Source: Saprospiraceae bacterium
GTDB taxonomy: Bacteria > Bacteroidota > Bacteroidia > Chitinophagales > Saprospiraceae
Reading direction: 5' to 3'
Assembly (NCBI GenBank): GCA_019694295.1
Contig: JAIBCG010000001.1
Span: 1 to 64,000, forward strand
DNA length: 64,000 nt
In this document: positions 40,858 through 56,690 of the stretch, piece by piece
Layout of the letters: each line of letters opens with the position of its first letter
How positions within the stretch are numbered: position 1 is the first letter of the stretch
Translations under genes and position numbers: made by a program
Notes under the pieces: model-generated
Told to the model about the DNA's origin: nothing
The model's database searches: none
What the model saw: only the letters and a program-made list of their open reading frames with translations

Positions 40858-42153
40858 TTATTCAAGGTTGTATTTTTTTCGATAAATACTATTGAGTACC
40901 TTTTGTTTGTTGCTGAGGTCGATTTTGCGGCCCTGAATAAAACCCATCGAAACTTTGCTGCTCATCATGTCAAAAATATCACCCTCTGAGATAAGTAAGG
41001 TAGCATCTTTCCCAACTTCGAGAGATCCGGTACTTCTGTCGATGCCCAGAATCTTTGCGGCATTGATGGTTATGCAGTTGAGAGCAGTCTCTTTGTCAAG
41101 TCCGTAAGGTATCGCCTGACCAACCTGGAAGGGCAGATTTCTTACTTGCCAGAATCCATCTACTGATATTGAAAACAGAATAGAATTGTCGGCAAGTATT
41201 GCAGGTGTTTTAAAAGGTTGTGCGATATTATCATCTTCATACATAGGCAGTCTGTGTGTTTCACTTAATACTACCGGTATATTTTTTTCTTTTAGAAAAT
41301 CTGTAATTTTCCAGGCTTCCTGAGCGCCTACGATCACAGGTTTGATGCTATATGGTTCGAAAAACTGTACAGCCGACTGTATTTCAATGACATCATGTGC
41401 ACGAACCCAGATTTTTCGCTCACCTTTGAATACCGGAATCAATGATTCGAATTTCAGGTTTCGAGGTTGTGGGTTGATTTTTGCCGAATAGGCATAAGCT
41501 TGGTCAAAGAAGGACTTTAATTCACGTATCTTATTTTCGAACTGTTCTGTTGGATTTTGCTTGGCGGCATCGTTGTTGCTTCCTCTTGAAGGACTGTTAA
41601 GATATGGCCAGTACATAAAGATTGCATCATCTGCTTTATAGACAGCATCTTCCCAGTTCCAGCCGTCAAGCATCATCACAGAAGACATGCCAGAGATAAC
41701 ACCACCTACCGGAGCTGTTTGTGTTAGAAATATGCCGTTGCTCCTGACTGTAGGTGTAACTCTTGAATCAGTATTGTATGCCACCAGTGCTCTCACTTCT
41801 GGATTGTAAGAGCCTATTTCAGAAAAATCATTGGTAGCCTTTATAGACTCTATTTCACTTAGCCCTAATTGTGTATTCAGGGCAATGAGTCCGGGGTAAA
41901 TATGCTTACCGGTAGCATCTATCCATTCATATTTATCTTGATTGAGGATTTTGCTTGAGCGCATATCCTCAAGTATGGTTATTTTTCCGGCTTCGAACGC
42001 GATGACGCCCGATTGTATTGTCTTACCATTGGCACAATGAATGGTAGCACCTTTGATGGCTACAGGCATACGTTGGGGCAAAGCACCTACATTTTGTGTA
42101 TAGGAGCACAATGATTGTCCGATGAAAAGCAGCAATATTAGTATTGATTTCAC
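40858..42153 (-). CDS. Exported amidohydrolase-family protein lacking the HxH metal motif
   Basis: This 431-residue protein has a signal peptide (to about residue 19) and an imidazolonepropionase-like amidohydrolase plan. An N-terminal strand domain (IKGATIHCANGKTIQSGVIA), a barrel, and a C-terminal NCITINAAKILGIDRSTGSLEVGKDATLLISEGD segment (split here by family convention) are visible. At the place where active enzymes have GxIDxHxH, it reads GLIALNTQLG, so Asn93 and Gln95 replace the two metal-binding histidines. Hydrolytic activity is therefore doubtful. It starts 16 bases after the stop of the larger two-module amidohydrolase and is probably co-expressed with it, perhaps as a partner subunit. 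Confidence 0.88.
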   Translation of the reverse strand: MKSILILLLFIGQSLCSYTQNVGALPQRMPVAIKGATIHCANGKTIQSGVIAFEAGKITILEDMRSSKILNQDKYEWIDATGKHIYPGLIALNTQLGLSEIESIKATNDFSEIGSYNPEVRALVAYNTDSRVTPTVRSNGIFLTQTAPVGGVISGMSSVMMLDGWNWEDAVYKADDAIFMYWPYLNSPSRGSNNDAAKQNPTEQFENKIRELKSFFDQAYAYSAKINPQPRNLKFESLIPVFKGERKIWVRAHDVIEIQSAVQFFEPYSIKPVIVGAQEAWKITDFLKEKNIPVVLSETHRLPMYEDDNIAQPFKTPAILADNSILFSISVDGFWQVRNLPFQVGQAIPYGLDKETALNCITINAAKILGIDRSTGSLEVGKDATLLISEGDIFDMMSSKVSMGFIQGRKIDLSNKQKVLNSIYRKKYNLE

Positions 42154-42169
42154 TTGATATTATATTTCT

Positions 42170-45100
42170 TCAATGGTTTTCGATTGATTCTTCTTTTCCT
42201 TCGCCTATAGTATCACAATGGTACTGTATCTTTTTAGCTGATGTAAACAATTCGGTTTTGCCGCCCGATTTTTTAAAAGCCAACATTTTTTGTATCAAGG
42301 CATTTCTTTCTTCATCTATCAGTTTTTTCTGTTGTTCCATTTCATTCCGGTCAAAGAATTTAATGCCATCAACAAAAGTAATTTCGGCAATAGCATATAT
42401 ACTCAATGGTGAAGCAGACCAGATAACGATGTCGGCATCTTTTCCTTCCTTGATACTTCCCATTCTAGCATCGAGGTGCAGAAGTTTTGCCGGGTTGATG
42501 GTTACCATTTTCAGGGCTTCAGTTGGTGACATTTCACTGTATTTTATGGCTTTGGCTGCTTCCTGATTGAGACGCCTGGCCATTTCGGCATCATCCGAAT
42601 TTATTGCTGTAGTAATACCCATGTCATGCAGAATGCCACTGTTGTGTGGAATGGCATCTATCACTTCATATTTATAAGCCCACCAATCGGCGAAGGTGGA
42701 TGCTCCTGCCTGATGTTTTTTCATTTTATCTGCTACTTTGTAACCTTCGAGTATGTGAGTAAAAGTATTGACTTTAAATCCGAAGTCATCGGCTACATGC
42801 ATGAGCATATTTATTTCAGACTGAACATAGGAATGGCAGGTGATGAAGCGTTTACTTGTAAGAATCTCGACAAGTGTTTCGAGCTCAATATCTTTTCTTT
42901 GGCTGGCCAAAAGTGTGTTATTCTTTTTGGCTGCAAGGTATTCCTGTGCACGGGTGAAGGCATCACGGTAAATCTGTTCGACACCCATTCTAGTATCAGG
43001 ATAACGTGTATTAAAAGAAGATCGCGAATTTTTAACATTTTCTCCTAATGCAAATTTTATAAACCCGTCAGCATTTTCTATTTTCATTTTTTCTGGTGCA
43101 TATCCCCACCTGAGCTTGATGATGGCGGATTGTCCACCGATAGGATTGCACGAACCATGAAGTAATTGTGCTGCCACTACACCACCTGAAAGCTGCCTGT
43201 AAATATTGACATCGTCACAGTTGACAACATCACCTATACGCACTTCAGCAGTATTGGGCTGGGTACATTCGTTGACACCACCCTGTATGGCAATGTGTGA
43301 ATGCTCATCTATGATACCCGGACTTACATGTTTGCCACTTGCATCGATTTCAATAGCGCCTTTGAAGCTCAGATTTTTGCCAATTTTATCAATTTTTCCG
43401 TTTTTTATCAATAAATCATAACCTTTGAGTACCTCTTCTTTTTCGCAGGTCCAGATGGTTGCATTTTTGATTAGATAATCTTTTTGCACTGGTTTTTCCT
43501 TCCATCCATATCCATCCCATGGATAGACAATGGTAGAAACCAGCACGTTGTTGGTTGTATCGGTTACCGATGGTTTAGTTGATTTTTCTATATCTGAAAT
43601 GAAATCAGCCTTCCAGTTAATGGCGTTTCCTGTAATGTCATAGCCTGAGCCGATGAGTTTGTCAGGGTAAGCTGTTCCGTTGAGCCTTATGAATTTTTTG
43701 GTTTTCTGATCAGGTACGAAGCTCAAGGTGATAATATTACGGTTGATGGTATTGTTCACATTTATTTTGCTTGTGTCATTTACCTGTATAAATGATTTGT
43801 ATTTCAAGCCATCTTTTTCAAAAACCAGAATCCGTATGGGGTCGTTATTTATACTTAGCTTGTATTTGCCGGGTCTTATGGCATCTGTAGTTTCAGAAAA
43901 GACGGTAGGTTCGCCATTAGACCAGGTCTGCAGTATTTTGGAGTTTTTATCAAAATAGTCCCCATCACAGATGAAAAAATTGGCTAATTTGCCGGCATCC
44001 AGGGCTCCGATTTTGTCAAGTGCACCAAGCCAGCTGGCAGGATTGTAGGTAATGGCTTTTAGTATGGCTTCTTTGCTCATTCCCCTATTCAGGCATTCCA
44101 GAATTTTGGATTTGAATGATGAAATTTTATCCAAACCTGATGTTGTCAATGTGATTTCGATACCTGCATCCGATACTATTTTCGGATTGGACGGTGCCAA
44201 CTCCCAATGCCGCATATCTGTGAGGTTTATTCTGTCGGCAATGTTCGGGTCTTCCACATCATAGGCATCAGGGAAATTAACAGGCAGAATGATTTGTGTT
44301 GCTTTGCCTTTTAGTTCATCAATACGTTGATACTCGTTGCCGCCACCTTTGAGAATGTATGATTTGTTGTATTCTTCAGCTATTTTTAGGGCTCGAAGTT
44401 CATTCAGTTTATCATTACATTCTATTATCTGAGGTAGTTTCTGCAGATCATTCCATGAGGCCAGTGTAAGATTGTATTGTTCTTTGTAGCCTGACCTGGC
44501 GTACCATTCTCCATCAAGGTATGTTTGTCGTAGTACAGCAATGATTCCCATTAGTGAGCCCGGATAAGCTTGAGTGCTTGAGCCTTTGCTGAACGACAGA
44601 TGGTGTGCTGTTTTATCTTTGATGATCAGCAGATTTTCTCTTTGGTCTGCAAGAGAAACCAGGGCAGATGAACCACGCGATATGCCATCCATACGGTGTG
44701 TATTGACAGCACAGAAGCCTGCTTCGAGGTATTGCTTAGCTTTACCGACATCTGTGGTGAAATGATCGATTGCTGAGAATTCACACTTTAGTGCATCATT
44801 GCCGGCATAGGCGCCCTTTCTGTCAGGCAACAGATTAGAATTTCTTCCATATTCAAAACCCTTTGAGGGCTTTGACTCTGGCATACCATAGGAAGTATAA
44901 ATATCGATAAAACCGGGATATATTGTTTTAAAACCAAGATCGACCACCACAGCATCATTAGGAACATTCAGATTTTTACCAACTGACACGATTTTCCCTT
45001 TACGAATAATGAGTGTAGCCGAATCTATGAAGGTATTATAAGATTTGTATATCCGGGCATTAGTAAAGGCATAATAATTTTCTCTTTCGTCCGAAATGCC

Positions 45101-45184
45101 GTTTATTGGAAAAGTCTGTTGAGCATTTGATGAAATGTGAAACAGCAATAACAAAAGTACACCAGCAACATGTCGTGATTTCAT
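42170..45184 (-). CDS. Exported two-module amidohydrolase-family protein
   Basis: This 1004-residue protein has a signal peptide (cleavage near SSNAQQ, residue 22) and two amidohydrolase-like modules. Module 1 (about residues 38-440) has the TNARIYKSYNTFIDSATLII start but reads GFIDIYTSYG where the HxH should be, so Tyr96 and Ser98 replace the histidines. Module 2 (about 560-985) keeps it in GIIDEHSHIA (His628, His630), and has TAINSDDAEMARRL with the catalytic-type Asp and a TINPAKLLHLDARMGSIKEG end. A beta-rich linker joins the modules. Only the second module looks able to bind metal. Substrate is probably a cyclic amide or dipeptide, but cannot be told. It has a good own promoter. Confidence 0.9.
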   Translation of the reverse strand: MKSRHVAGVLLLLLFHISSNAQQTFPINGISDERENYYAFTNARIYKSYNTFIDSATLIIRKGKIVSVGKNLNVPNDAVVVDLGFKTIYPGFIDIYTSYGMPESKPSKGFEYGRNSNLLPDRKGAYAGNDALKCEFSAIDHFTTDVGKAKQYLEAGFCAVNTHRMDGISRGSSALVSLADQRENLLIIKDKTAHHLSFSKGSSTQAYPGSLMGIIAVLRQTYLDGEWYARSGYKEQYNLTLASWNDLQKLPQIIECNDKLNELRALKIAEEYNKSYILKGGGNEYQRIDELKGKATQIILPVNFPDAYDVEDPNIADRINLTDMRHWELAPSNPKIVSDAGIEITLTTSGLDKISSFKSKILECLNRGMSKEAILKAITYNPASWLGALDKIGALDAGKLANFFICDGDYFDKNSKILQTWSNGEPTVFSETTDAIRPGKYKLSINNDPIRILVFEKDGLKYKSFIQVNDTSKINVNNTINRNIITLSFVPDQKTKKFIRLNGTAYPDKLIGSGYDITGNAINWKADFISDIEKSTKPSVTDTTNNVLVSTIVYPWDGYGWKEKPVQKDYLIKNATIWTCEKEEVLKGYDLLIKNGKIDKIGKNLSFKGAIEIDASGKHVSPGIIDEHSHIAIQGGVNECTQPNTAEVRIGDVVNCDDVNIYRQLSGGVVAAQLLHGSCNPIGGQSAIIKLRWGYAPEKMKIENADGFIKFALGENVKNSRSSFNTRYPDTRMGVEQIYRDAFTRAQEYLAAKKNNTLLASQRKDIELETLVEILTSKRFITCHSYVQSEINMLMHVADDFGFKVNTFTHILEGYKVADKMKKHQAGASTFADWWAYKYEVIDAIPHNSGILHDMGITTAINSDDAEMARRLNQEAAKAIKYSEMSPTEALKMVTINPAKLLHLDARMGSIKEGKDADIVIWSASPLSIYAIAEITFVDGIKFFDRNEMEQQKKLIDEERNALIQKMLAFKKSGGKTELFTSAKKIQYHCDTIGEGKEESIENH

Positions 45185-45206: not shown

Positions 45207-45236
45207 CAAATGTATAAAATTCTTTGGAAAATCCAA
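45207..45236 (-). promoter_or_regulatory. Putative Bacteroidota promoter (TTG-N19-TACATTTG) for the two-module amidohydrolase
   Basis: On the minus strand TTG (45236-45234) is followed after 19 bases by TACATTTG (45214-45207), an excellent match to the -33/-7 pair. The start codon lies 22 bases downstream at 45184. It is in the 96-base gap after the DPP III-like gene, which allows transcription separate from that gene. Confidence 0.55.
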
Positions 45237-45280: not shown

Positions 45281-47242
45281 CTAATTGCTATTGGGGAGCA
45301 AACGATATTTTTCTGAAAAGAACAACATTTGTGAATTGAAATTATCGGGGTACAGGATTTGGACGTCAACGATTTGACCATTGGCATTTTTGATTGGCTC
45401 GAAAACAGGCTGTATGAAAGCCGGATGGAAAGAAAAACCTATAGAGTTGATTCTGGCGTTTACTTCTGCCATCAACTGTTGGTCTGCTGTGGTCCCGTAT
45501 TTTTCTACCAATATTGAGCGGAGCGCTCCATTATCATCACTTATATTGTTCAGATCTTTTAACAACTGTCCAAATATTTGTCTCAGACCTTTATAATTAT
45601 TTATCCTGAAGTATGTCTTTCCGTTTATTTTTTCTTTTACAATGATGTTTTTACTTTGTCCTTTTTCAAAAGCCATGGTTGCGACCAACTGTTTTGCTCT
45701 CAACTCGGGGTTTGTAATGTTTTTGCCGGGTTCTGTGTCATGAAGCTGCACCAACAGACTTTTGGTGATGTAATGGTCGTACATGGTGCGGGCAGCCTGT
45801 TCATCACCCAACAATCGTCGTTTGAAAATCATTGGATCAAATATCATATACAACGCCTGAAGATCGGCTTTGGCATAATCGATGATGTTGAGATTTTCCC
45901 ACTCTGGTTTGGTTGAAATATTTTGATTGTCAGGCAAAAAAATATTCCTGATCCACTGAAAAAATTTCGAGGCTTCGGCAGTATATTTCACTAATCCTGA
46001 GTATATTTCCGGGCTTGGAGCAAATTCTCTGGCCAGCGATTTGCTTTCGGTATATACAATGGCTTTATTGATGTTTGTAAAATAGTTGGGTAGCTGATTT
46101 TTTCGCCAAGCCGGGGCATAGCTTCCTCCGGCACTTAACAGTTCAAATGAATTATCCACGCCCTTTGTCTGCAGGTCTTGAGCCGGAAGTGCTAAAGCAG
46201 CAAAATCTTTAAAGAATTGAATACTGTCACGGAGCATTTTTATCTGTCGTGCAGATATGTCATCTTTGATATAAACTAGAGTCACAAACCCTGCCTTCAG
46301 TTTAAGCGGATCATGGGAAATATCATTGAATCCGATTTGGAAATCAATTTTATTATTGTCTATAGCGGCACGAGCTTTTTCATATTTTTCTAACACGCCC
46401 GGATCAGCAGTTTTGAAATACTCGATCAAAAGGCGGAAGGAATGCTCTTGTTGTTTATTTTCGGCAATTGCTGCAGCTTTTTCAAGCCAATAAATTATTT
46501 GCCGAATGGCACCAGCATACATACCACCAGTTTTCCAGAATATTTCTTTGACGAACCCATCCGTACTGAGTGTCAGTTTACCATTTTTATTTTTGTGTTC
46601 ATTATTTCTGTAATATACTTCGATATCAGCCTCAGTAAGCTCGTGGTTATAGAAATTGACAGCAGAAGTGCGTATCTGATCGGCTGCAGGGTCGTTGTTG
46701 CACAGTAGAGCATCTTTTCTTGGGTCAAACATGATGCTTACCAATTCTGGTGAAAGGCTTTCATGGCTTTCGGACATTAGATTGGTAAAATATTCTTTTG
46801 TAAAAAGTGGCTGAATTTTCACACCCGTGAATGCATCATGAATGCCATTTGAAACCCAAATTTGTTTGAGATAGCGTTCGTAGTTTTTCCAGTCTTTTGT
46901 ATCTTTATTCCCTTTGTGGTTTAGGTAAATTTTTTCAAGAACTCGTGTAAGCACAAGGTTGAATTGATAATTTTGGTCGTAAATTATATCGCGACCACTA
47001 AGCCCGGCTTGTACCAAATAATATGCCAGGAGTCGTTGATTGGGAGTGAGTCTGTCGAATGCAGGACATTGGTATTTGATTATCCTGGTATCAGCGAATG
47101 AATCAATATTTTGGTAGAAGACATCATCTGATATAGTATTAGCAGGAGGAAGTCCGCTACGACTTTTACACGAACAAATTGATGTCAACAACAGAGTCAA
47201 CAAAAAGAGTTTGGTGTAAAAAATGACCGGAACTCCTGTCAT
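45281..47242 (-). CDS. DPP III-like (peptidase family M49) lipoprotein lacking the zinc-binding motif
   Basis: This 653-residue protein has a lipoprotein-type signal (SICSC, lipid-modified Cys near residue 25). It aligns over its whole length with dipeptidyl peptidase III of Bacteroidota. The C-terminal third is very typical: EPGKNITNPELRAKQLVATM, GKTYFRINNYKGLRQIFGQL, LVEKYGTTADQQLMAEV and QILYPDNFNSQMLFFSEKY. In active M49 enzymes a HECLGH-type motif precedes an EEARAD segment. Here the equivalent positions read FQWIRN (428-433) and DYAKAD (455-460), so both His, the Glu base and the Glu ligand are gone. I expect a non-catalytic binding protein. It starts 3 bases after the FKBP lipoprotein gene. 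Confidence 0.88.
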   Translation of the reverse strand: MTGVPVIFYTKLFLLTLLLTSICSCKSRSGLPPANTISDDVFYQNIDSFADTRIIKYQCPAFDRLTPNQRLLAYYLVQAGLSGRDIIYDQNYQFNLVLTRVLEKIYLNHKGNKDTKDWKNYERYLKQIWVSNGIHDAFTGVKIQPLFTKEYFTNLMSESHESLSPELVSIMFDPRKDALLCNNDPAADQIRTSAVNFYNHELTEADIEVYYRNNEHKNKNGKLTLSTDGFVKEIFWKTGGMYAGAIRQIIYWLEKAAAIAENKQQEHSFRLLIEYFKTADPGVLEKYEKARAAIDNNKIDFQIGFNDISHDPLKLKAGFVTLVYIKDDISARQIKMLRDSIQFFKDFAALALPAQDLQTKGVDNSFELLSAGGSYAPAWRKNQLPNYFTNINKAIVYTESKSLAREFAPSPEIYSGLVKYTAEASKFFQWIRNIFLPDNQNISTKPEWENLNIIDYAKADLQALYMIFDPMIFKRRLLGDEQAARTMYDHYITKSLLVQLHDTEPGKNITNPELRAKQLVATMAFEKGQSKNIIVKEKINGKTYFRINNYKGLRQIFGQLLKDLNNISDDNGALRSILVEKYGTTADQQLMAEVNARINSIGFSFHPAFIQPVFEPIKNANGQIVDVQILYPDNFNSQMLFFSEKYRLLPNSN

Positions 47243-47245
47243 ATC

Positions 47246-47836
47246 TTATTTAACAGAAACCAGCTCGATGGTAAAGACCAGAATAGATTTTGGCGGAATC
47301 AATTCATTTCCTGTATGATCTTTTACGGACTTATTTTCGTAACCTAAGAACGCAGGAAGCACAAAGAGGCCCTTGCCACCGGGTTTGAGTGACATAACGG
47401 CTGCATCAAAGCCGGGAATCATTTTACCTACTTGATAAGTAAGTGGTTTGCCGGTTTTGAATGTAGAGTCGAATTCTTTATCATCCATAAGCCTTCCTTC
47501 ATAATTGACTACTACTTGGTCATCAAGCTGAGGCGACTTACCATTTCCTTCTGATTTCATTTGATAAAGAAAACCTCTTGGGTCAAACTGAAATGAACCC
47601 AGTGTACGGTCATCAAAATATTTCATCATCTTAGACAGGTCATCCTGAGTAAGCCGAGGGTCAAATTCGCCCGGGGCAAATGCGGTTTTATTGCCCGGAG
47701 AAGCTGACATTGAATTTTCGTTTTGCATTGGAAGATTAGAGCCACCGGAGCTTGCGCTATCATTTCCTTTACTATCCTGCTTGCATGCAGACAGTATCAT
47801 TAATGAACATAAGCCTAACAGTATAATTAATCTCAT
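47246..47836 (-). CDS. FKBP-type peptidyl-prolyl isomerase lipoprotein
   Basis: This 196-residue protein has a lipobox (LSAC, Cys18), a Ser/Asn-rich linker (about residues 20-55), and an FKBP domain. The domain has VVNYEGRLMDDKEFDSTFKT, VGKMIPGFDAAVMSLKPGGK, FVLPAFLGYENKSV and the closing LVFTIELVSV strand. It is an outer- or inner-membrane-tethered foldase acting on proline bonds in the periplasm. The stop is 3 bases before the DPP III-like start, and both are lipoproteins, so they are almost certainly co-expressed. A strong promoter candidate precedes it (47863-47894). Confidence 0.92.
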   Translation of the reverse strand: MRLIILLGLCSLMILSACKQDSKGNDSASSGGSNLPMQNENSMSASPGNKTAFAPGEFDPRLTQDDLSKMMKYFDDRTLGSFQFDPRGFLYQMKSEGNGKSPQLDDQVVVNYEGRLMDDKEFDSTFKTGKPLTYQVGKMIPGFDAAVMSLKPGGKGLFVLPAFLGYENKSVKDHTGNELIPPKSILVFTIELVSVK

Positions 47837-47862: not shown

Positions 47863-47894
47863 CAAAGATAGAGCTTTATAGAGGAGAGTTGCAA
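47863..47894 (-). promoter_or_regulatory. Putative Bacteroidota promoter (TTG-N21-TATCTTTG) for the FKBP gene
   Basis: On the minus strand TTG (47894-47892) precedes TATCTTTG (47870-47863) by 21 bases. The ATG at 47836 lies 27 bases downstream. It overlaps the short gap after the SDR gene. Confidence 0.5.
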
Positions 47895-53271: not shown

Positions 53272-53309
53272 CGTATCAAGTAATTATTTTGCTTTTAAAT
53301 TTTGCCTTA

Positions 53310-56300
53310 ATGGAAACAATTGCCACTTACCAACCCAAAAACAAGATAAGATTAGTAACTGCAGCCTCTTTATTTGATGGCCATGATGCTGCCATAAACG
53401 TTATGCGCAGAATATTACAATCATCCGGTGCTGAAATCATCCACTTGGGGCATAACAGATCTGTACAGGAGATTGTCAACACAGCTATACAAGAAGATGT
53501 ACAGGGCATTGCCATTACATCATATCAAGGCGGACACAACGAATTCTTCAAATACATGTATGACCTGCTGAAAGAAAAAGGTGCAGCTCAGATTAAGATT
53601 TTCGGTGGAGGTGGAGGTACCATACTGCCCACAGAAATTGAAGAACTGCATAAATATGGCATTGCACGTATTTACAGCCCCGATGACGGCCGCCACATGG
53701 GCCTGCAAGGTATGATTAATGATTTGTTGGAGCAATGTGATTTCGCTGTTGGTCAAAATCTAAACGGTGAAATAAAGGAAATTTCATCGAAGAATCCTAA
53801 AGCCATTGCAAGACTCATCTCAGCTGTCGAAAATTTTCCTGAACAAAATACTACACTCGTTACAGACCTACAAAAAGAAAATACACCAAAACACATTCCT
53901 GTACTTGGTATTACCGGTACAGGCGGAGCCGGAAAATCAAGCCTTGTTGACGAACTCGTCAGGAGATTCCTTATTGACTTCAAAGATAAAACAATAGCCA
54001 TCCTGTCAGTTGACCCATCCAAACGTAAAACCGGAGGAGCTTTGCTTGGCGACAGAATACGGATGAACTCCATCAATGATGGCCGGGTATATATGCGCAG
54101 TCTTGCCACACGCCAATCAAATATTTCACTGTCTAAACATGTGCATTCGGCTATCGAAGTATTAAAAGCAGCCAATTATGACCTTATCATTCTCGAAACA
54201 TCAGGTATCGGTCAGTCTGATACAGAAATAACAGATTATTCTGACGTGGCATTGTATGTCATGACACCAGAATATGGAGCAGCCTCACAGCTCGAAAAGA
54301 TTGATATGCTTGATTTTGCCGACATTATTGCCATCAACAAATTTGACAAAAAAGGAGCAATGGATGCTCTGCGTGATGTGAGAAAGCAATATCAGCGCAA
54401 CCACAAATTATTTGACAAAAAGCCGGAAGAAATGCCTGTGCTGGGTACTATCGCTTCTCAGTTCAATGACCCGGGAATGAATGCACTTTACAAAAAAATA
54501 ATTCAAACGCTGGCAGAAAAAACACATACCGGGCTATTGTCACAAACCGAACTGGAAGGAGGCATAAGTGAAAAAATATACATCATTCCACCGGCCCGGG
54601 TGCGGTATCTGTCAGAAATAACGGACAACAACCGACATTATTCACAGTGGGTGCTACAGCAGGCAGATATTGCACGTACCTTATTCAGTATTAAAAATAC
54701 AATAGAGGCAGTTAAAAAGCAAAACCTACCCAACAAAGATAAGATACTCGAAGACCTTGAGAAAACTTATCATGAAACTGACATAAAATTTGACGGTACC
54801 TGCCGAAGAATTATCCAGGAATGGGAAGCAAAAAAAGCATCGTATGCTGCAGATGAATATATCTACAAAGTCAGAGACAAAGAATTTCGGCAGGCGACAT
54901 TCACAAATTCTCTTTCGCACACAAAAATCCCAAAAGTAGTATTGCCCCGATTTAAAGACTGGGGAGAAATACTGAGATGGGTGCTTGAAGAAAACGTGCC
55001 GGGCGAATTTCCTTATACAGCAGGTGTTTTTCCATTCAAAAGAACAGAAGAAGACCCTACAAGAATGTTTGCCGGAGAAGGTGGACCGGAGCGAACCAAC
55101 ACACGTTTTCACTATTTATCAGTTGATATGCCGGCCAATAGACTCTCCACGGCTTTTGACAGTGTTACACTCTATGGCGAAAACCCTGATTTCAGACCAG
55201 ACATTTATGGTAAAATCGGTAACTCAGGTGTATCGGTTTGTTGTCTTGATGACGCCAAAAAACTTTATTCGGGATTTGACCTTTGTGACCCGAAAACTTC
55301 AGTTTCTATGACCATCAATGGTCCGGCAGCTACTATTTGCTCATTCTTTATGAATGCTGCTATTGACCAACAATGTGAGAAATACATCTACGAGCATAAA
55401 CTTGAACATCTTGTAGAAGAAAAACTACTCGAACTTTACGAAAACAAAGGATTAAAAAGGCCAAAATATAATGGAGACCTGCCTGAAGGTCATAACGGAC
55501 TCGGGCTGATGCTACTCGGCATTACGGGTGATAAGGTATTGCCTGCTGATGTATATAACCAACTTAAAGCAAAGGCCCTAGCAGCAGTGAGGGGCACAGT
55601 CCAGGCCGATATTCTTAAAGAAGACCAGGCACAGAATACTTGTATATTCTCCACTGAGTTTTCACTAAAGCTGATGGGCGATGTGCAGCAATATTTTATA
55701 AACAACAATATCAAAAACTTCTATTCTGTATCCATTTCCGGATATCATATTGCTGAGGCAGGCGCTAACCCTATCACACAACTCGCATTTACTCTGTCCA
55801 ATGGATTTACACTTGTAGAGTATTACCTGTCGAGAGGAATGGATGTTGATAGTTTTGCACCGAATTTTTCTTTTTTCTTTTCAAATGGGGTTGATCCTGA
55901 GTATTCTGTGATAGGCCGTGTGGCAAGAAAAATATGGGCTAAAGCCATGAAGGAAAAATACAAGGCCAATGACCGAAGTCAGAAGTTAAAATATCATATA
56001 CAGACATCGGGTAGGTCATTGCACGCTCAAGAGATATCATTTAACGATATACGCACCACACTTCAGGCATTGTATGCAATATACGACAATTGCAACTCGC
56101 TGCATACCAATGCTTATGATGAAGCCATAACTACACCTACTGAAGAAAGTGTAAGACGTGCAGTAGCTATACAAATGATCATTAATCATGAACTGGGGCT
56201 TGCCAAAAATGAGAATCCACTTCAGGGTGCTTTCATTATTGAAGAACTGACAGACTTAGTAGAAGAAGCCGTTTATAAAATATTTGATGAAATAACAGAT

Positions 56301-56690
56301 CGTGGCGGTGTTTTGGGCGCAATGGAAACAATGTACCAAAGAAGCCGCATTCAGGAAGAGAGCCTTTACTATGAATCTTTAAAACACTCAGGAGAATATC
56401 CGATAGTAGGTGTCAACATGTATTTGTCAAGAGACGGTTCGCCTACTATTATCCCGAAAGAAGTAATACGTGCTACTGAGGAGGAAAAAAAGAACCAAAT
56501 AGCATCGCTTGAAGCATTGCATGACGCAAAAAAAGATATCTCTGCTGATGTACTTCATAATCTGCAAAAAGCAGCTCTCAATAACGAAAACATATTTAGT
56601 CATCTGATGGAAGCATCCAAAACCTGCAGCCTTGGTCAAATAACCGATGCATTGTACAGGGTAGGTGGGCAGTACAGAAGAAATATGTAG
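53310..56690 (+). CDS. icmF: Fused isobutyryl-CoA mutase (IcmF type)
   Basis: This 1126-residue protein fuses three parts. Residues ~15-150 form the cobalamin-binding domain, with DGHD (23-26) giving His25 as likely cobalt ligand. Residues ~190-480 are a MeaB-type GTPase chaperone with P-loop GTGGAGKSS (202-210) and [11 protein letters not shown]. Residues ~540 onward are the acyl-CoA mutase barrel. The substrate segment [12 protein letters not shown] (567-578), followed by [11 protein letters not shown], is typical of IcmF rather than of methylmalonyl-CoA mutase (PYTRGxYPTMY). It would interconvert isobutyryl- and butyryl-CoA or a related pair, using adenosylcobalamin. The ATG at 53310 is chosen over a TTG at 53289. 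Confidence 0.93.

Follow-up and report, generated by a model that had tools for sequence, protein, structure and literature searches.

The minus-strand gene at 45281..47242 is, with a probability that we put at roughly 0.6, a lineage-specific pseudopeptidase: a DPP III paralogue, itself an exported lipoprotein, in which the catalytic pocket and zinc ligands have been lost, the two-lobed M49 fold has been kept and transcription probably occurs together with an FKBP lipoprotein. It was found in a Saprospiraceae genome of 3.08 Mb (97.7% complete), within a window of 64,000 nucleotides, the window being the whole stretch of DNA that was analysed.

45281..47242, minus strand: M49/DPP III homologue lacking the zinc site, 653 aa, predicted lipoprotein

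An M49 homologue with an open frame and predicted export

An intact frame of 653 codons and full-length homology to M49 had been claimed in a preliminary description of this DNA, and both claims were borne out. The minus-strand ORF (45281-47242) is free of stops over its 653 codons, and its codon-position GC (.46/.32/.39) is like that of the neighbouring genes with which its composition was compared. It matches Peptidase_M49 (PF03571) in Pfam at 27.9 bits, above the cut-off of 21. A phmmer search of PDB sequences returned a sole match, the DPP III of B. thetaiotaomicron (Bt; 5na6/5na7, E 2e-95), which aligns over two blocks, residues 28-365 and residues 453-653, but not over the intervening catalytic stretch. 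By descent the protein belongs to M49, on the grounds of full-length sequence similarity and of the similarity of its predicted fold to that of DPP III.

A hydrophobic segment is present at the N-terminus, as expected of a lipoprotein. In an alignment of 29 sequences (the M49 homologue, its paralogue from the same genome and 27 M49 genes from relatives), Cys25 occupies a column with almost no variation among related M49 proteins, which also fits a lipoprotein.

An AlphaFold2 model (29 sequences; pLDDT 84, pTM 0.81) resembles the Bt DPP III structures 5na6/7/8 with a Z of about 50 over about 600 residues (5na8_A: Z 51.1, 604 residues aligned), a likeness to be read with caution, since the alignment behind the model included canonical DPP III and biases it towards that fold. 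Confidence is low for parts of the pocket, within 354-383 and at 440-448, so that a binding site is not readable from the model. A fold search with the model also revealed that PolE (DUF6421, an Fe/pterin oxidase; PDB 9j30/9j3g) shares the DPP III fold, at a Z of about 12.

Loss of the zinc site and conserved regions

Limits of the conserved M49 regions, including R1, were taken from PMC5667867. Their equivalents in the M49 homologue are as follows.

46274..46333, minus strand: R1 equivalent, GFNDISHDPLKLKAGFVTLV, residues 304-323; Bt Glu307 replaced by Asp and Tyr309 by Ser (HMMER alignment and multiple alignment)
46070..46096, minus strand: R2 equivalent, QLPN...YFTNI, residues 383-391; most of GVNLPNxxWIRxxxGSKSVSLGNI deleted
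45932..45949, minus strand: R3 equivalent, with RNIFLP (residues 432-437) in the HEXXGH columns
45863..45880, minus strand: R4 equivalent, with DYAKAD (residues 455-460) for EExRAD
45683..45712, minus strand: R5 equivalent, with NPELRAKQLV (residues 511-520) for E(A/S)HMRNRQLI; catalytic His replaced by Glu513

The zinc site is lost, as had been proposed, with all zinc ligands missing, and the damage is wider than the earlier claim, extending to R2, R3 and R5. DYAKAD does stand at 455-460 in place of EExRAD. The string FQWIRN, previously read as the HEXXGH equivalent, is present at 428-433, but its register was wrong and the columns fall on RNIFLP, four residues later. This shift is immaterial: the stretch between residues 310 and 490 contains no His, and neither HEXXH nor HEXXXH occurs anywhere in the whole protein; HEXXGH, which might have lain in another part of it, is found nowhere either. 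The hallmarks of an active M49 peptidase are lacking throughout: HEXXGH (or its HEXXH variant), the EExR(K)AE(D) segment with the third zinc ligand, in whose place DYAKAD is found, and the substrate and catalytic regions R2 and R5. Conserved sites are retained at 5/18 positions in R2, 0/8 in R3 and 1/5 in R5. Among the equivalents of substrate contacts, Bt Glu307, Tyr309, His533 and Tyr627 have become Asp307, Ser309, Glu513 and His606, and Asn388 is retained.

Sequencing or assembly error was considered and rejected, there being hundreds of substitutions together with in-frame deletions, a contig of 121 kb and the same order of neighbours in the metagenome-assembled genome (MAG) of a sister species. 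As in a pseudopeptidase, the catalytic residues are lost and the predicted fold is kept. The protein is likely unable to hydrolyse peptides. Since it is M49 by descent and predicted fold, yet the defining catalytic features fail, it is best classed as an M49 pseudopeptidase and not as a DPP III.

The paralogue and other M49 genes

L002:1486-3522 (G000:C41:10573-12594): paralogue L002, an apparently intact DPP III lipoprotein

This second M49 gene lies on another contig of the same genome, carries HEVIGH and EEARAD and is 31% identical to the M49 homologue. The paralogue is itself on a longish branch of the tree (1.13 vs a median of 0.28). HEXXGH and EExRAD are both retained in 120/120 other M49 genes, these being the paralogue and genes from relatives in the family and order, so the loss of the motifs is not a matter of chance.

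No close relative of the M49 homologue was found in other genera in the genomes searched, where full-length matches reach 31-38% identity, and a scan with the protein found no orthologues in named GTDB genomes. When the catalytic stretch (285-470) was searched against 396 genomes of the order, the 11 best matches examined comprised, besides the gene itself, only M49 genes with HEXXGH. The terminal branch of the M49 homologue measures 6.87 vs a median of 0.28, and because of this very long branch the tree leaves it unplaced. The intact form of the zinc-less gene is a single sequence from one known genome, which limits the reach of these findings.

Gene neighbourhood and the sister species

47246..47836, minus strand: FKBP-type peptidyl-prolyl isomerase lipoprotein, upstream of the M49 homologue in the same presumed transcription unit
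47863..47894, minus strand: promoter-like site TTG-N21-TAnnTTTG upstream of FKBP (pattern match), with an equivalent in the sister
45207..45236, minus strand: second promoter-like match, just upstream of the amidohydrolase (pattern match)
42170..45184, minus strand: amidohydrolase AH1, 1004 aa, downstream neighbour
40858-42153: amidohydrolase AH2, 431 aa, adjoining AH1
L019:1504-1944 (G001:C284): stop-ridden N-terminal M49 remnant in the sister, between intact FKBP and amidohydrolase

The Bacteroidota-type promoter reads TTG-N21-TAnnTTTG. Matches to this pattern number 21 in the window vs 9.4 in shuffles; a match of this kind does not show that transcription occurs. An operon with the FKBP gene had been suggested, and the arrangement supports it: only 3 bases separate the FKBP stop from the M49 start and a single promoter-like site precedes FKBP, so the two genes probably form a bicistronic unit. 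The amidohydrolase is probably on its own transcript, since it has its own promoter-like match upstream.

Pairing of AH1 with AH2 is common in the family, occurring in many Saprospiraceae, whereas pairing of AH1 with M49 or FKBP is not; FKBP and M49 were not seen near AH1-AH2 in the flanks examined in other genera. Neither was an FKBP gene found beside any other M49 locus among the flanks examined (up to 1.5 kb). When named GTDB genomes were scanned with the FKBP pair, the matches were limited to the sister MAG and a single distant FKBP from Arcicella. AH1 itself apparently comprises two amidohydrolase-like halves in one protein (AH1-AH2 pair, 40858-45184). Elsewhere in the window, an ORF of 1133 aa (53289-56690) looks, by eye, like a methylmalonyl-CoA mutase-type fusion with B12-binding, G-protein chaperone and mutase parts.

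The sole known sister species is Saprospiraceae bacterium MAG-355, which is also the sole other member of the genus examined; its 7348-base contig is apparently JAEUUM010000200.1. The gene order FabG - FKBP - M49 - amidohydrolase is common to both loci. A closer look at the M49 slot in the sister reveals about 144 codons with three in-frame stops and nothing recognisable beyond about residue 153; the zinc region is absent. Identity to the sister is 37% for the M49 remnant vs 65% for the adjoining FKBP, and a DNA-level comparison with the remnant gave no significant nucleotide similarity. Since the sister copy is a stop-ridden remnant, the M49 gene is dispensable in that lineage. Beside the wrecked M49 gene, FKBP survives there with its promoter-like sequence, which argues that FKBP is independent of M49. 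Orthologues next to FKBP with the same substitutions, as sought on the strength of the preliminary description, are absent from the genomes searched, where only this pseudogene remnant was recovered.

Selection or decay

A site was counted as conserved if kept in at least 90% of canonical M49 proteins. The M49 homologue retains 8/36 such sites in R2-R5 vs 117/197 elsewhere (Fisher p 4e-5, for R2-R5 against the remaining sites, with R1 left out of the test). Outside R2-R5, retention is 62/77 in the N-terminal segment, 14/55 in the middle and 41/65 in the C-terminal segment. The paralogue retains 35/36 and 170/197, respectively. The coding sequence of the paralogue itself was put through 200 simulated runs of neutral drift that allowed no indels. 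Drift to 65% identity produced a mean of 13.6 stops and no stop-free run (0/200); the M49 homologue has none. At 10% change the frame was still open in only 4/200 runs. Because the catalytic region has diverged by far more than 10%, we infer that inactivation was followed by a long phase during which something kept the frame open. As to retention, an open frame and selective loss of R2-R5 stand on one side, and one intact sequence and a decayed sister copy on the other.

Interpretation and alternatives

The description of the gene as an exported pseudo-peptidase finds support: the protein has kept the Cys25 column, its frame and its predicted fold but none of the zinc ligands and little of the catalytic pocket, and the genome carries an intact paralogue elsewhere. 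On this reading, a paralogue of DPP III has lost its catalytic pocket and zinc ligands with frame and predicted fold retained; the inactivation would be old and followed by a long period with the frame held open. Retention would most likely be for a non-catalytic role, the binding of peptides or protein by a lipoprotein at the cell envelope, which would account for the retained frame. More tentatively, and at somewhat under even odds, the product would be a bacterial pseudo-DPP III with a function of its own, namely a lipoprotein of the envelope whose M49 cleft closes without catalysis and so captures peptides or a partner protein. The main rival reading is recent decay, in which the gene, released from selection in the genus, is on its way out, a pseudogene with its frame still intact and free of stops, unlike the sister copy. 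The state of the sister remnant, the very long end branch and the lack of close relatives in other genera all speak for it. However, loss is concentrated in the catalytic regions with N-terminal conserved sites at 80%, where uniform decay would look different, and so strong a loss in the catalytic region implies an old inactivation, after which many stops would be expected in the frame. We regard decay as the less likely reading, though a very recent relaxation after a long phase as a functional pseudoenzyme is possible.

Other explanations fare worse against the same data. That the M49 scaffold has acquired a new catalytic activity would have a precedent in the Fe/pterin chemistry of PolE, which the fold search also returned; DUF6421 is reported to be structurally DPP III-like without HExxGH (PMC12614342). 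PolE keeps a HE/DxxH...E metal site, though, whereas the M49 homologue has no His from 311 to 489 and is far closer to DPP III overall (Z about 50 against about 12), making a new activity improbable. The co-encoded FKBP might have the protein as its folding partner, as had been proposed, or as its client, and the 3-base gap and the one promoter-like site upstream speak for this. The idea is nevertheless not supported and seems very improbable: the sister retains FKBP (65% identical) with its promoter-like site although its M49 gene is no longer intact, and no other M49 locus had an adjoining FKBP in the flanks examined. Under the pseudopeptidase reading the protein would have no obligate partnership with FKBP. 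Active DPP III enzymes with the atypical motifs HEISH and HELMH are known (PMC5805324, PMC9820243), but these keep both His and the Glu; in the M49 homologue the R5 His and the Glu of the motif are missing along with all three zinc ligands, and no HEXXH or HEXXXH replaces them, so that a working dipeptidyl peptidase with a displaced or unusual zinc site is scarcely credible.

Comparison with known systems

The M49 homologue is like Bt DPP III (5na6/5na7/5na8) in its full-length homology and its predicted two-lobed fold, and differs in having neither HEXXGH nor EExRAD, in the deletion of most of R2 and in carrying Glu in place of the R5 His. Bt DPP III is moreover described as cytosolic (PMC5667867), whereas the M49 homologue is a predicted exported lipoprotein. 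With the predicted DPP III lipoproteins of Saprospiraceae, including L002, it shares both family and N-terminal lipoprotein Cys column; those proteins carry HEXXGH and EExRAD, whereas the M49 homologue carries neither and is 31-38% identical to the full-length ones. PolE (DUF6421) likewise uses a DPP III-like fold without HExxGH, but has its own Fe site, HE/DxxH...E, a motif that the M49 homologue lacks; the likeness shows that other chemistry, too, has made use of the M49 scaffold.

Most catalogued pseudopeptidases belong to metallopeptidase families other than M49, and a review of metallopeptidase pseudoenzymes does not mention M49 and names none in it (PMC11266112). We found no report of an M49 or DPP III pseudoenzyme among the open-access papers searched, an absence that is no proof of novelty. 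Like the pseudopeptidases of that review, the M49 homologue is related to peptidases and has kept the fold, as predicted from its sequence, without the catalytic residues; unlike them, it is bacterial and confined to one lineage. Taken together, the lost pocket, kept frame, intact paralogue and decayed sister copy form a compact natural experiment in the evolution of an enzyme into a binder, or into a relic.
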